A stretch of DNA of 36,296 nt from an uncultured Peptococcaceae bacterium (GTDB lineage: Bacteria > Bacillota > Peptococcia > Peptococcales > Peptococcaceae): positions 1 to 36,296 of the forward strand of contig CATJSX010000034.1 of the NCBI GenBank assembly GCA_949743265.1, read 5' to 3'. How positions within the stretch are numbered: the first letter of the stretch is position 1; each line of letters opens with the position of its first letter. Below, piece by piece: positions 2,182-7,303 of this stretch. The notes under the pieces are model-generated. The model was not told the DNA's origin. It searched no databases and saw only the letters and a list, made by a program, of their open reading frames with translations. Position numbers and translations under genes: made by a program.

Positions 2182-4203
2182 TTAGTATTCTTCCGCCAGA
2201 ATTTGATAAACTGGTGCTCCTTCACATTGTTTTGGCATACGAACACCAGCTAAAACAGCTACAGTAGGTGTAACATCAACTTCTCTAATCCAACGTTTAG
2301 TCACGTAATTTTGTTTAATTCCTTTTCCGGCGGCAATAAAAATTGGCGATACAGAAGTATCTTCAAATCCTAATGTGGTTGATAGAGAATCGCAGTGATC
2401 ACCGTTATAGCCTTCCGCAGTAAAGAAAATAATATCTCCGCATTGTGGGTAATCACCCCCTAGACCAATTAAGACAGCGTCTTTGTTGCGCAAAGCAAGA
2501 GAAATGACTCTATCTCCAGTTTTAGGATGCTTATAAGTATATAAAGCAGTGATAATTTCATCTTCCAATTTGTATTTATCTTCTGGTTCAACAATCCCAT
2601 ATTTATCTCTTCCTTTTAGGTTAATGTAAATATGGCAAGCCCTATTATTGATGGCGCGTGTGCGGGACCAATCTATCTCTTTCATAGGATTTCCGTTTTC
2701 ATCTTGTTTCACATAGGTGAAGCCTAGCTCCTGCATGATTGGAATACTTGTTCCACCACCGCTGCAAATTAACGGGCGATCATGTTCTGAGGAAACTTGT
2801 GCGTGATCAGAAACGATCAAAATTGTCCAATCTTTATCCAACAGATGAACAAATTGTCCAATATATCGATCCGTCTGGGTATAAACCGCTTCAGCCATCG
2901 TTAAATATTCTTCATGAGGTAATATTGCATCGCCTTTATCTTTCAAGAATCGCCAAATCATATGTCCATGAGCGTCAATATTATGAAAATGCGAAAATAT
3001 AACGTCATAATTTTTTTCTTCAATCAAATAATTCAATGCTTTCGCCTGCCATTTAGCAGCGACTTCCCAACACTCATGCATACAATCCATAACTAATTGT
3101 TTATCTGCACCGCCAAGATTAGATTCTGGAGGAGTATAACCAGCAACATCAATGATTTCTTGATACAAACTTTTGGGATGCCATACAGAATCATTGCGAA
3201 TATCCATGGCTGCTGAAATCCACATTTTCAAATGCCCACCGTCTTCATCAAGTTCTAAAATACGCATCCAACGTGCGACCGTGTAGTGCTGATCATTTTT
3301 TATAGCTTCGTCAACAATTGCTTCACTAAAAGTATCTTTAGCTAATGTGGCAATAGGATCAGATGCTTTTTTTGATTTATAAATTGCAATATGATCGTAG
3401 ACATTTTGTTCATTTTTTAAGATTAAAGCCGATCGATGAACTAATCCTTTGGAAAGAAGGATAGTAAATTCAAGCGCATCTACAGGCGCATTAGCCCAGC
3501 CTTGAGCAGGTTTAACGGGAGATAAAACAATATCAAAAGGAGCCTTCGTTAAATCAACGCCATCATCATCTTCTGACAGAATGATATTATGAATATCATT
3601 TCCACTTGTCATCATCTCACTCATACTTGTGGCATTATCGCCGATTTGTAAATCGGTAATAACACAAGGAACTTTGCCAGCAGTAGCAGCTTTTTCCTGA
3701 AATTTTACACTTTCATTTCGTTTATCAGCTACAACAATGAATTCGGGTTCTACTTGTCCAACCCCCATATTGACGACTCCCGGTTGAGTGCCATCTACGA
3801 CATGCAAATTCTCACTTTCGGAAGTTGGTGGCCAAGAACTACCGGGCCAATGCCATACCAATGTTTTTAATCCAGCTTCAGCGGTAACGTTCCATAATGG
3901 TTCCGCTGTACAATTTCTGGAATCAAGATTATATTCTAAAACGTCTAAATCAGTCGGTGACTGACGACTAAAACAGGTAACGTTATGAACCATTGGATAA
4001 CATCCTGTAGCTAATGTCGTCCACATCGGCGGCGTAACAGTAGGCTGTCCACCCAATAATACCAAATCTTCTCTGGCAGAACCGCATTCAATAATTTTTT
4101 TGGTATTAGGCATAAGACCTTGATCAACATATTTGCGCGTCAATCTTGGATCCATGCCATCAATACCGAGCACCAAAATTTTTTCAGACAATGGTTTTTT
4201 CAT
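2182..4203 (-). CDS. Alkaline-phosphatase-superfamily phosphodiesterase or nucleotide pyrophosphatase-like hydrolase
   Basis: The 673-residue product shows the metal-binding skeleton of type I phosphodiesterases and nucleotide pyrophosphatases. I read D15 in GIDGMD, the probable nucleophile T57 in TPPMWTTLATG, D410 and H414 in NIDAHGH, D466-H467 in VSDHAQ, and H603 in NGDHCD. This is the two-zinc set of the superfamily. There is no signal peptide, so it should act in the cytoplasm. I place the start at the ATG at 4203, because AAGGAG lies eight bases before it; a GTG nine bases further up would overlap that site. The family cleaves phosphodiesters, phosphonates or sulfate esters, and the real substrate is unknown. 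Its neighbours are a downstream SLC13 transporter and a divergent LysR gene, which suggests uptake and hydrolysis of a small anionic ester. Confidence 0.82.
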   Translation of the reverse strand: MKKPLSEKILVLGIDGMDPRLTRKYVDQGLMPNTKKIIECGSAREDLVLLGGQPTVTPPMWTTLATGCYPMVHNVTCFSRQSPTDLDVLEYNLDSRNCTAEPLWNVTAEAGLKTLVWHWPGSSWPPTSESENLHVVDGTQPGVVNMGVGQVEPEFIVVADKRNESVKFQEKAATAGKVPCVITDLQIGDNATSMSEMMTSGNDIHNIILSEDDDGVDLTKAPFDIVLSPVKPAQGWANAPVDALEFTILLSKGLVHRSALILKNEQNVYDHIAIYKSKKASDPIATLAKDTFSEAIVDEAIKNDQHYTVARWMRILELDEDGGHLKMWISAAMDIRNDSVWHPKSLYQEIIDVAGYTPPESNLGGADKQLVMDCMHECWEVAAKWQAKALNYLIEEKNYDVIFSHFHNIDAHGHMIWRFLKDKGDAILPHEEYLTMAEAVYTQTDRYIGQFVHLLDKDWTILIVSDHAQVSSEHDRPLICSGGGTSIPIMQELGFTYVKQDENGNPMKEIDWSRTRAINNRACHIYINLKGRDKYGIVEPEDKYKLEDEIITALYTYKHPKTGDRVISLALRNKDAVLIGLGGDYPQCGDIIFFTAEGYNGDHCDSLSTTLGFEDTSVSPIFIAAGKGIKQNYVTKRWIREVDVTPTVAVLAGVRMPKQCEGAPVYQILAEEY

Positions 4204-4523
4204 GCAAAGCACTCCTTCAGTATCAAGATTTTTATGTTGGCCAACATTTTTTACATCCTTATTATAATTATAAAATATATCAAAGTAAAATATATGACAA
4301 TAATAGTTAGTCTGATATATATCGTCGCTATCTATGAAACAGGATATACTACAAAGAATTTACCAAAATAATAAATAAAAAAACTTGCTGATAAATTGCT
4401 ATTGACAATTAAAAATCATTTTATTATAGGCAAATACAATGATTTTACTTCTAATCGGAAAAATGATATACTTATCAAAGATTATTTTTTGTTGATCATT
4501 TACAAAAACGAGGAGCTGTCAAT
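4204..4523. promoter_or_regulatory. Divergent promoter region between the hydrolase and lysR genes
   Basis: This 320-base, very AT-rich region holds the control elements of both transcription units. On the plus strand TTGACA (4402-4407) is followed after 17 bases by TATAGG (4425-4430), a reasonable sigma-A promoter for the LysR gene. On the minus strand TTGTCA (complement of 4295-4300) with TATTTT 17 bases on is a weaker candidate for the hydrolase. A short dyad, TGATA-N4-TATCA at 4464-4477, could be a LysR-type box. I see no gene here. Confidence 0.5.
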
Positions 4524-5435
4524 ATGCGAATAGAACAACTATATCATCTGATAGAAATCGCCAAAACCCATTCTTTTACAATAGCAGCGCAAAATCTCTT
4601 TATCAGTCAGCCAACCATTAGTGAATCAATCAAAAAATTAGAAGAAGAATTATCAATAACTTTATTAAATCGTCAAAAAAATAGCGTGACATTGACCGAT
4701 TTAGGACAAGAAATTTATGATATTGCTTTGCAGATTGTCAGTCAATTTGAACGTATACAAGAAATATCCCATCGCGAATCGTTTAATGTTAATAACGCTT
4801 TACAAGGAAATTTGAAAATTTCTGTTTCTACAGGAATTATTCACGGCTATTTGGAAAACGTTTTGCCTTTCTTTAAAAATAAATATCCTAATGTTACTTT
4901 ATCAGTGATTGAGCATGGGGTATATGAGTTATTGGACTTGGTTAGCACACAAAAATGTGATATCGCCATTACAATCGTTGATCAAAACAAATATTGGCAG
5001 GAACATGGTGCTAAACTGAAATATCGTTGTTTAGCTACCGAAGATTTTTATGCTTTAGTACCTGCCAATTCCCCTTTAGCCAATAAAAATAGCATTTCTA
5101 TTCGTGAGCTCGTTAATTATCCATTAGCTGCTTTGAGCTGTAATCATTCAATCAACCTTAACGATATGCTCAATGATCTATCTTCATTTCAAATCGTTTT
5201 TGCTACAAATGATTTTCAACTCTTGCAAGATTATATTGTACAAAATAATGTTATTGCTTTTCCTGTGAATGCCTCTATCCTGCAATCTTTTTCTCATAAT
5301 GTGCGGATAAAAGCCATAAAAGTTGCCAACAATTTCAAAGCAAAAATTTATTATCTTTATCATAACGATAATCCGCAAAAAGATTTGATCGAAGCCTTCA
5401 TTGAGGTTTTAGAAAATGAATTTATTCGGCAATAA
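4524..5435 (+). CDS. LysR-family transcriptional regulator
   Basis: The 303-residue protein has the standard LysR length and layout. The N-terminal winged helix-turn-helix covers roughly residues 3-60 (MRIEQLYHLIEIAKTHSFT..., then AAQNLFISQPTISESIKKLEEEL), and a periplasmic-binding-protein-like effector domain follows from about residue 90. The start has GAGGAG nine bases upstream. It is divergent from the hydrolase-transporter pair with a shared 320-base regulatory region, the usual arrangement for a LysR activator of its neighbour. Its effector is probably the transported or released small anion, but that is inference. Confidence 0.92.
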   Translation: MRIEQLYHLIEIAKTHSFTIAAQNLFISQPTISESIKKLEEELSITLLNRQKNSVTLTDLGQEIYDIALQIVSQFERIQEISHRESFNVNNALQGNLKISVSTGIIHGYLENVLPFFKNKYPNVTLSVIEHGVYELLDLVSTQKCDIAITIVDQNKYWQEHGAKLKYRCLATEDFYALVPANSPLANKNSISIRELVNYPLAALSCNHSINLNDMLNDLSSFQIVFATNDFQLLQDYIVQNNVIAFPVNASILQSFSHNVRIKAIKVANNFKAKIYYLYHNDNPQKDLIEAFIEVLENEFIRQ

Positions 5436-5483: not shown

Positions 5484-5569
5484 CAAATTTTGATTTTAAC
5501 GTCTGATATTTATATGAAACGACTATTTATATTCAATAGCTATTTTTATTCGCTTAAAATCAAAATTTG
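5484..5569. repeat. 16-bp inverted repeat, arms 54 bases apart
   Basis: Bases 5484-5499 (CAAATTTTGATTTTAA) are perfectly complementary to 5554-5569. The sequence lies just downstream of the LysR stop codon. The arms are AT-rich and there is no T-tract after the second arm, so it is not a clear terminator. It may be a transcript-end structure or the footprint of a small mobile element. Confidence 0.6.
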
Positions 5570-5648
5570 CATTTCATCGCCTATTTTTGACCGTAAACTA
5601 GAAATATATGTTCGTGTTTTGCTGCTATTTTTCACTAGCGACAAAATG

Positions 5649-5676
5649 TTGTGACATAATAATAATTATGTCGTCA
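5649..5676. other. Candidate dif-like Xer recombination site
   Basis: The site reads as an 11-base left arm TTGTGACATAA, a six-base centre TAATAA, and an 11-base right arm TTATGTCGTCA. This is the 11-6-11 plan of dif sites, and the inner ends CATAA and TTATG match those of the E. coli dif site. It lies about 250 bases upstream of the tyrosine recombinase gene. Related half-sites occur at 5634-5646 (ACTAGCGACAAAA) and 5734-5746 (ACTGGCGACATAA); the second matches the reverse complement of the right arm (TCTGACGACATAA) at 11 of 13 positions. A recombinase binding site next to its own gene is known for XerS/difSL and XerH/difH. The role here is inference. Confidence 0.5.
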
Positions 5677-5699
5677 GAATTGATTTTTTATGTTATAAT
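5671..5699 (+). promoter_or_regulatory. Probable promoter of the recombinase gene
   Basis: A perfect TATAAT at 5694-5699 has TCGTCA at 5671-5676, 17 bases upstream, as a weak -35. The -35 overlaps the right arm of the dif-like palindrome, so recombinase binding could repress transcription. Confidence 0.45.
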
Positions 5700-5925
5700 A
5701 CCCTTAGAAAGCAGATTATTTAACGGCAAAAAAACTGGCGACATAATTATTTTGCTATTTTTTTCTTAAATTTTTGCGTCGTTTACTCATTACTCTTTTG
5801 ACAGTAAGTTATTTTTAAGAACAAATATTAAATAATTTGCGTTTGATAATTATTGTTGTTTTGTCCTTTAATCAAGAATTTCCGAGCACTACCCCCTTCT
5901 ATTTTCATTTTTGAGGTGATTGATA

Positions 5926-6819
5926 ATGAATGATAACTGGCATTTGAAACTTCAAGACTACAGAAATTTTTTAACTACTAATGGTTTAAGTGAAAACTCT
6001 GTTAATTCTTATTTGTACACTTTGGGAAATTTTGCGCAATTTATGGTTGAAAGTTATGGACAATTTGACTATGATCATATTTTATCAGTTGATATTAAAG
6101 ACTATCAAAATTATTTGCTGAATATCAAAAAATACAAACCAGCTACTATTTCCAAAAATTTGGTTGTTTTGCGCAATTACTGCCAATTTCTTATTATTCA
6201 AGGCTATATGACGAAAAATCCTTGTGATGAAATTCCTGCTTTTAAAGTACAGAATCCTTTGGAAAATGCGCCGGAAGTATTAGAGGGTCTTCATCTCAAG
6301 CGTTTTCGCCGCGCCGTCTACGCTGGCGGTAGTATGCGGGACATTTGTATTTATGAATTGCTTTATAATACAGGAATCCGCGTTTCGGAATTATGCGCTA
6401 TTGAACTTGATGATTTTGTCATTGGCGAGCGCAGCGGAACGTTGATTGTACGCAGCGGCAAAGGAAACAAATATCGTGAAGTTCCTTTAAATGCTGTTGC
6501 CAGAGCCTCTGTTCGCAACTATCTTGAAGTTCGCCCAAAAGTAAACAATAATAAATTATTGCAAGGTCAACGCGGTCCGCTGCAACGCAAAGCCATCAAT
6601 ACTATTTTAAACAAATATGCTGCCAAAGTTGATATTGGCGGTCAAAAAATGCATCCCCACCTTTTGCGCCACCAGTTTGGTCATGATATGGTGCAAAACG
6701 GCGAAACGCTATCGGTTTTAAAGGAAATTCTAGGACATGAAAACATCAATACTACCGCTCGCTACACTAAACCAACCAAAAAAGATACCCAAGAAGCTGT
6801 CGAACGACTGAACCAATAA
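5926..6819 (+). CDS. Xer-type tyrosine recombinase
   Basis: The 297-residue protein has XerC/XerD length and domain order: an N-terminal SAM-like core-binding domain (about residues 5-90) and a C-terminal catalytic domain. All six catalytic positions are visible: R152 (NTGIRVSEL), K179 (SGKGNKYREV), H245 and R248 (HPHLLRH), H271 (LGHENI) and the nucleophile Y280 (ARYTK). I use the ATG at 5926, which has GAGGTGAT seven bases upstream; the in-frame TTG six bases earlier would overlap that site. The likely role is chromosome dimer resolution or site-specific integration. It stands alone, convergent with the asp23-family gene, behind a promoter embedded in a dif-like repeat region. Confidence 0.9.
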   Translation: MNDNWHLKLQDYRNFLTTNGLSENSVNSYLYTLGNFAQFMVESYGQFDYDHILSVDIKDYQNYLLNIKKYKPATISKNLVVLRNYCQFLIIQGYMTKNPCDEIPAFKVQNPLENAPEVLEGLHLKRFRRAVYAGGSMRDICIYELLYNTGIRVSELCAIELDDFVIGERSGTLIVRSGKGNKYREVPLNAVARASVRNYLEVRPKVNNNKLLQGQRGPLQRKAINTILNKYAAKVDIGGQKMHPHLLRHQFGHDMVQNGETLSVLKEILGHENINTTARYTKPTKKDTQEAVERLNQ

Positions 6820-6830
6820 ACAAAGTTAAT

Positions 6831-6873
6831 AAAAAACCGCTGAAGGCATATCATTTACCTTCAGCGGTTTTTT
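6831..6873. terminator. Bidirectional terminator between xer and the asp23-family gene
   Basis: A 16-bp stem (6831-6846 with 6858-6873) has an 11-base loop and A/T runs on its outer arms. It lies between convergent genes, 12 bases after the recombinase stop and 26 bases beyond the Asp23-family stop, and should serve both. Confidence 0.9.
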
Positions 6874-6898
6874 ATTAGCTTCATTTGGACAAATTTTT

Positions 6899-7303
6899 TT
6901 ACCTTCCTCTACTATCGCTGTTCTCATCTTTCGTATTTTCTTCCCAAACACCAAAAGTTACCCCTTGCACATGAACGTTGACTTCACGCACTTTTAAGCC
7001 AGTCATATTCTCAATGGCGTTTTTGACACTGTTTTGAATTTCATGTGCCAAAGCGGGAATTTTAACGCCAAATTTTACCATCAAATACAGTTCAATAGCC
7101 ACATCTTTTTGATTAACATCGACTTTAACGCCTTTGGCTAAATTTTTCTTGCCCAGCATTTCAGAAAAATTAGACGTTACGCTGCCAGCCATACCAGCGA
7201 CGCCTTCGGGTTCCATGGCGGCGATACCAGCAATGGCGGCAATGACGCCGTCAGCAATTTTGATCGTTCCATAATCTTCTTTTTTTTCTGTTGTTTCTTC
7301 CAT
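6899..7303 (-). CDS. Asp23/Gls24-family envelope stress protein
   Basis: The 134-residue protein matches the Asp23 (DUF322) family throughout. Typical segments are GTIKIADGVIAAIAGIAAMEPEGVAGM near the N terminus, VDVNQKDVAIELYLMVKFGVKIP in the middle, and VREVNVHVQGVTF near the end. Family members lie under the membrane and are linked to envelope stress. The start has AAGGAGG seven bases upstream. The gene lies 65 bases downstream of spoIIIAH, a common neighbourhood in spore formers, but has its own sigma-A-like promoter, so vegetative expression independent of sporulation is likely. Confidence 0.92.
   Translation of the reverse strand: MEETTEKKEDYGTIKIADGVIAAIAGIAAMEPEGVAGMAGSVTSNFSEMLGKKNLAKGVKVDVNQKDVAIELYLMVKFGVKIPALAHEIQNSVKNAIENMTGLKVREVNVHVQGVTFGVWEENTKDENSDSRGR

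Follow-up and report, generated by a model that had tools for sequence, protein, structure and literature searches.

A 111-bp array of four half-sites (5636-5746) in an uncultured Peptococcaceae bacterium is probably the cognate TnpI/IRS-type resolution site of the tyrosine recombinase encoded next to it, present here without a transposon. The window, meaning the whole 36,296-nt stretch of DNA that was analyzed, is contig 34 of a 3.04-Mb draft genome (208 contigs, 98% complete), and the array lies in the intergenic stretch that separates a LysR gene (4524-5435, + strand) from the recombinase gene (5926-6819, + strand). A sequence-only reading had described a 28-bp palindrome with an 11-6-11 plan at this place, one extra half-site on each side of it, and a recombinase promoter whose -35 element overlaps the right arm, and all three were present as described (Table 1). 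The palindrome, TTGTGACATAA-TAATAA-TTATGTCGTCA at 5649-5676, has the inner ends CATAA and TTATG. In their 13-bp form the flanking half-sites are ACTAGCGACAAAA (5634-5646) and ACTGGCGACATAA (5734-5746), both in + orientation, and the putative -35, a consensus match (TCGTCA, 5671-5676), falls within the core right arm 17 bp ahead of TATAAT at 5694-5699. On the LysR side of the array, the same intergenic stretch also contains a 16-bp inverted repeat with perfectly matching arms (5484-5499 and 5554-5569, 54 nt between arms), and 45 bp starting ~15 bp past the start of its left arm are matched at 80% on contig C93 of this genome.

Table 1. Features of the recombinase gene and its upstream array (window coordinates; offsets are counted from the core start).
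Feature	Position	Strand	Basis or remark
Accessory half-site H0, TAGCGACAAAA	5636..5646	+	Starts 13 bp before core start; -13 also in L060, L061, L065
Core left arm, TTGTGACATAA	5649..5659	+	Sequence; unique in genome assembly
6-bp central (crossover) region, TAATAA	5660..5665	.	Sequence; relatives have 6 or 7 bp
Core right arm, TTATGTCGTCA, inverted half-site	5666..5676	-	Sequence
Predicted recombinase promoter, TCGTCA-17-TATAAT, extended -10 (TG)	5671..5699	+	Consensus match only
Distal accessory half-site H3, TGGCGACATAA	5736..5746	+	Starts 87 bp after core start; +86 to +88 in many relatives
Tyrosine recombinase, 297 aa, with R, K, HxxR, H and Y motifs	5926..6819	+	Shine-Dalgarno-like GAGGTG at 5913-5918
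Terminator-like hairpin between recombinase gene and convergent asp23 gene	6829..6875	.	Sequence prediction

The palindrome by itself is not significant, as shuffling the intergenic DNA 2000 times produced an equal 7-bp inner run in 201 cases. The four-part array, in contrast, is far beyond chance: its score of 25.5 was reached in 0 of 5000 intergenic shuffles (maximum 22.5), and the maximum in 100 shuffles of the whole window was 21.0. A good half-site at +41, an offset that recurs among the relatives described below, was not found in the window array, which has the -13 half-site instead. An Rfam comparison gave no match.

Relatives of the recombinase that were 32-46% identical were found in 27 of 398 other genomes in a phylum search (E < 1e-40), and the array was found again upstream of relatives 34-46% identical, with its half-site letters altered. 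The sequence-only reading had named lack of conservation upstream of orthologues as a point against it, and what is conserved there is an array with fixed spacing. The claim about geometry is carried by free scans, in which extra half-sites were allowed anywhere within 140 bp on either strand, and not by an averaged profile. These scans placed a half-site at +87 in the window and in L060, L061, L085 and L087 (genomes G184, G157, G356 and G335), at +86 in L075 (G237), and at -13 in the three loci listed in Table 1 (G184, G157 and G313). One helical turn beyond +87, they placed half-sites at +98 in L065 (G313) and L138 and at +97 in L071 (G219). Geometry-restricted scans added L010 (G030), with an exact 11/11 copy at +87, as well as L066, L067 and L086, which comprise G357 (+88) and both G249 copies (+86). 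The half-site letters varied by locus (GACATAA, AAGATAA, AATATAA, TACATAA, AACATAA, CGCAAAA), and since spacing was kept while letters changed, the pattern is not simple sequence conservation. A match profile averaged over relatives peaked at +87, +41 and -13, which is supportive only, as some of its cores (e.g. L062, L069, L080) were chosen by a geometry-aware scan, and the profile overstates +87 and -13 but not +41. The array was undetected in about half of the relatives examined, plasmid ones included.

Several loci bearing related recombinase genes had features of their own. The G338 chromosome carries two closely similar copies ~21 kb apart in the same orientation (L112, L113), each within similar neighboring elements, and in G213 a related gene directly follows a CRISPR-like repeat array (L080/L109). 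On small Priestia and Niallia plasmids (L136, L137), perfect palindromes with 11-bp arms lie ~118 bp upstream of related recombinase genes, and accessory half-sites were absent at these palindromes. One genome-contig scan and one viral scan, each with a single protein query, found no relatives of use.

The array faces the opposite way with respect to the gene in L065, L067 and L086 (G313, G249), which suggests that its first function is recombination and not promoter control. This bears on the possibility that the array is only an autoregulatory operator, with a stranded recombinase whose old site controls its own promoter or does nothing, which we consider unlikely. Such an operator would be in keeping with the single site in the assembly, which has no partner, with the predicted -35 inside the core, and with the location of the locus at a break in the conserved asp23-nusB gene order, as for an inserted fragment. 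The active-site motifs of the recombinase are nonetheless intact in sequence, all four half-sites are retained at the spacing of the family, and the inverted arrays suit a recombination site better.

The translated flanks of 12 related genomes revealed the break in gene order: in all 12, a nusB-like gene comes after asp23. Here asp23 (6899-7303) is neighbored by the convergent recombinase gene and not by nusB, and nusB-xseA is found on another contig, C56 (L157), behind LysR, transporter and phosphodiesterase genes. The conserved asp23-nusB-xseA order is thus broken exactly at the recombinase gene, which fits acquisition or rearrangement, the draft assembly being compatible with either. The C56 phosphodiesterase gene is 44% identical to one at 2182-4212 of the window. 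A plasmid or transposon is the probable source of the module.

A further explanation is that the recombinase integrates, excises or inverts DNA at the core, which would then serve an integrative element for attachment or an invertase as its target. The core has one copy in the assembly; the next matches have 2 mismatches, the total of matches is no greater than for a reversed-pattern control, and a search of the assembly that allowed up to 2 mismatches brought out no further core above background. An integrative or inverting role appears quite improbable. Some relatives are in phages or islands (a Moorella phage; G184, beside a phage-type integrase), and the 16-bp inverted repeat (5484-5569) lies nearby, as such a role might suggest, but neither cargo genes nor the edges of an element were recognized, and two direct accessory half-sites at fixed distances favor resolution. 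The earlier suggestion of an autoregulated integrase with its attachment site survives as a recombinase with its own adjoining, probably autoregulatory site that overlaps the promoter; for the attachment site itself, the assembly offers no support in the form of a second core.

The sequence-only reading had also proposed a lone recombinase forming a single-Xer system comparable to XerS or XerH, and had recommended a genome-wide search for the 28-bp element together with a count of Xer genes. The recombinase gene is alone locally, but it is not the only Xer-like gene of the genome, which has canonical xerC in a trmFO-xerC-hslV context and canonical xerD in an xerD-deoB context; this count speaks against a single-Xer system. 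The window protein fell short of the model cut-offs for XerS (87.6 bits against 267), XerC (177.5 against 335), XerD (170.8 against 330) and XerA (171 against 220). In a tree, XerC and XerD sequences formed a separate, well-supported group without the window protein, whose place inside the non-XerCD group was poorly resolved. A reading as an integron integrase was rejected, as the protein scored 59.4 against a model cut-off of 265.

The genome-wide search yielded the single copy described above, and GC skew across the window showed no clean switch. Matches to a general dif consensus resembled background. With a Firmicutes-type pattern, this draft yielded only a weak dif candidate (L146, contig C164 of G000; 3 mismatches in 21), but CTTCCCATAATATGTATTATGTAAACT in the related genome G003, a member of the same family (L147), was a good one. 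Compared with the known dif sequence, the G003 candidate looks like a canonical Firmicutes dif. Relatives were scattered along complete chromosomes (positions not referred to the origin) and some genomes had two copies of related recombinase genes, both of which speak against a dif role. A dif of the XerS or XerH type would share the 11-6-11 plan, the CATAA/TTATG inner ends and a gene adjoining its own site, as for XerS/difSL. Against the canonical XerC and XerD genes, the XerS score far below cut-off, the skew, the canonical-looking dif of G003, the genomes with two copies and the relatives located on plasmids, we regard this explanation as highly improbable.

The best annotated relatives of the window recombinase are plasmid-borne, and some are linked to transposons. 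On plasmids of Legionella fallonii and L. israelensis (L144, L141) the recombinase gene overlaps a Tn3-family transposase gene (tnpA), in the order of a tnpI-tnpA arrangement, and the upstream sites comprise a core, a direct half-site at +41 (10-11/11) and another at +87 (11/11). A Caedibacter plasmid recombinase gene likewise has a Tn3-family transposase gene downstream, with weaker candidate half-sites at +41 and +87. In comparison with these Tn3-linked recombinases, the window matches +87 at 11/11 and leaves +41 unmatched, with -13 instead. Half-sites were found at +62 and +98 on pBM19 and pGEOTH02 (L134, L135), and the distal half-site is at +98 on an Anoxybacillus plasmid (L138). The Caldicellulosiruptor plasmid pBAS2 was rejected as a relative because it encodes a different recombinase and has no such array; the pBAS2 paper found no Xer site.

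We propose that two recombinase subunits would bind the inverted core arms and exchange strands across the 6-bp center, while further subunits of the same recombinase on the direct half-sites at -13 and +87 would be architectural. By wrapping the partner sites, these architectural subunits may confine synapsis to pairs of direct repeats within a single molecule, and the outcome would be deletion or resolution and not integration or inversion. Vanhooff and colleagues reportedly showed in 2006 that DR1 and DR2, the direct repeats of the TnpI site, are bound by catalytically inert TnpI subunits, which limits TnpI to resolving sites in direct repeat. With the predicted -35 inside the core and the transcript start inside the array, recombinase bound at the core should additionally shut down expression of its gene. 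Substrates of the chromosomal copy would be limited to a replicon that is duplicated or dimeric and to incoming elements with the same site. The surroundings of the window gene contain neither a transposase or replication gene nor a second copy of the site; a current substrate is thus not apparent, and the present role of the chromosomal copy may be resolution or that of a stranded module.

A broader possibility, which we hold only tentatively, is that the locus represents a wide and so far undescribed family of independent, self-resolving modules, each with one site and one Xer-like recombinase that doubles as accessory protein on half-sites at fixed offsets (-13, +41/+62, +87/+98). Such modules might have been adopted by plasmids, phages, Tn3 transposons and chromosomes, the window copy being a working chromosomal version for a host function. 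Extra XerC/XerD-like genes with no annotation beyond 'tyrosine-type recombinase' are found in many genomes and plasmids. The fixed spacing offers a means of locating their cognate sites with nothing but sequence and of telling resolution modules apart from integrases. The TnpI/IRS plan, which one survey (PMC7157771) reports for just three Tn3-family transposons, would also reach solitary plasmid and chromosomal genes, and its topological logic becomes testable in new protein-site pairs.

Among known systems, XerS/difSL and XerH/difH each pair one recombinase with a site close to its own gene (PMC5357621), as in the window. They are the sole chromosomal Xer systems of their hosts, however, whereas the window genome has XerC and XerD, and the window site, unlike theirs, has accessory half-sites. 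The pBM19, pGEOTH02 and Anoxybacillus plasmids share with the window a self-encoded recombinase, an upstream core with a distal direct half-site, and no transposase in the stretch examined; they differ in having the distal half-site at +98 (and a half-site at +62 in two) and in their plasmid location. The Legionella loci share the ATAA/TTAT inner ends, the 6-bp center, the +87 half-site and the position of the site upstream of the gene, and differ in a second accessory half-site at +41 and in the overlap of the gene with tnpA.

The Tn4430 irs, upstream of tnpI, is made up of IR1, IR2, DR1 and DR2, recombination taking place at the IR1-IR2 core; in Tn5401, TnpI binding modulates tnpI expression (PMC7157771). 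Like these systems, the window has a two-domain tyrosine recombinase with a site directly upstream of its own gene, in which inverted core half-sites are joined by two direct accessory ones (-13 and +87) and the predicted promoter lies inside the site. TnpI binds core and accessory half-sites as one and the same protein, which is putative for the window recombinase. Unlike Tn4430 and Tn5401, the window module is chromosomal and has no terminal repeats and no Tn3-family transposase among the window genes scanned, and one accessory half-site is at -13 instead of +41, the offsets for this comparison being those of the Legionella and Caedibacter relatives. Because of the missing transposase linkage and the displaced half-site we do not class the module as TnpI, but it most likely works as a TnpI/IRS resolution module does.
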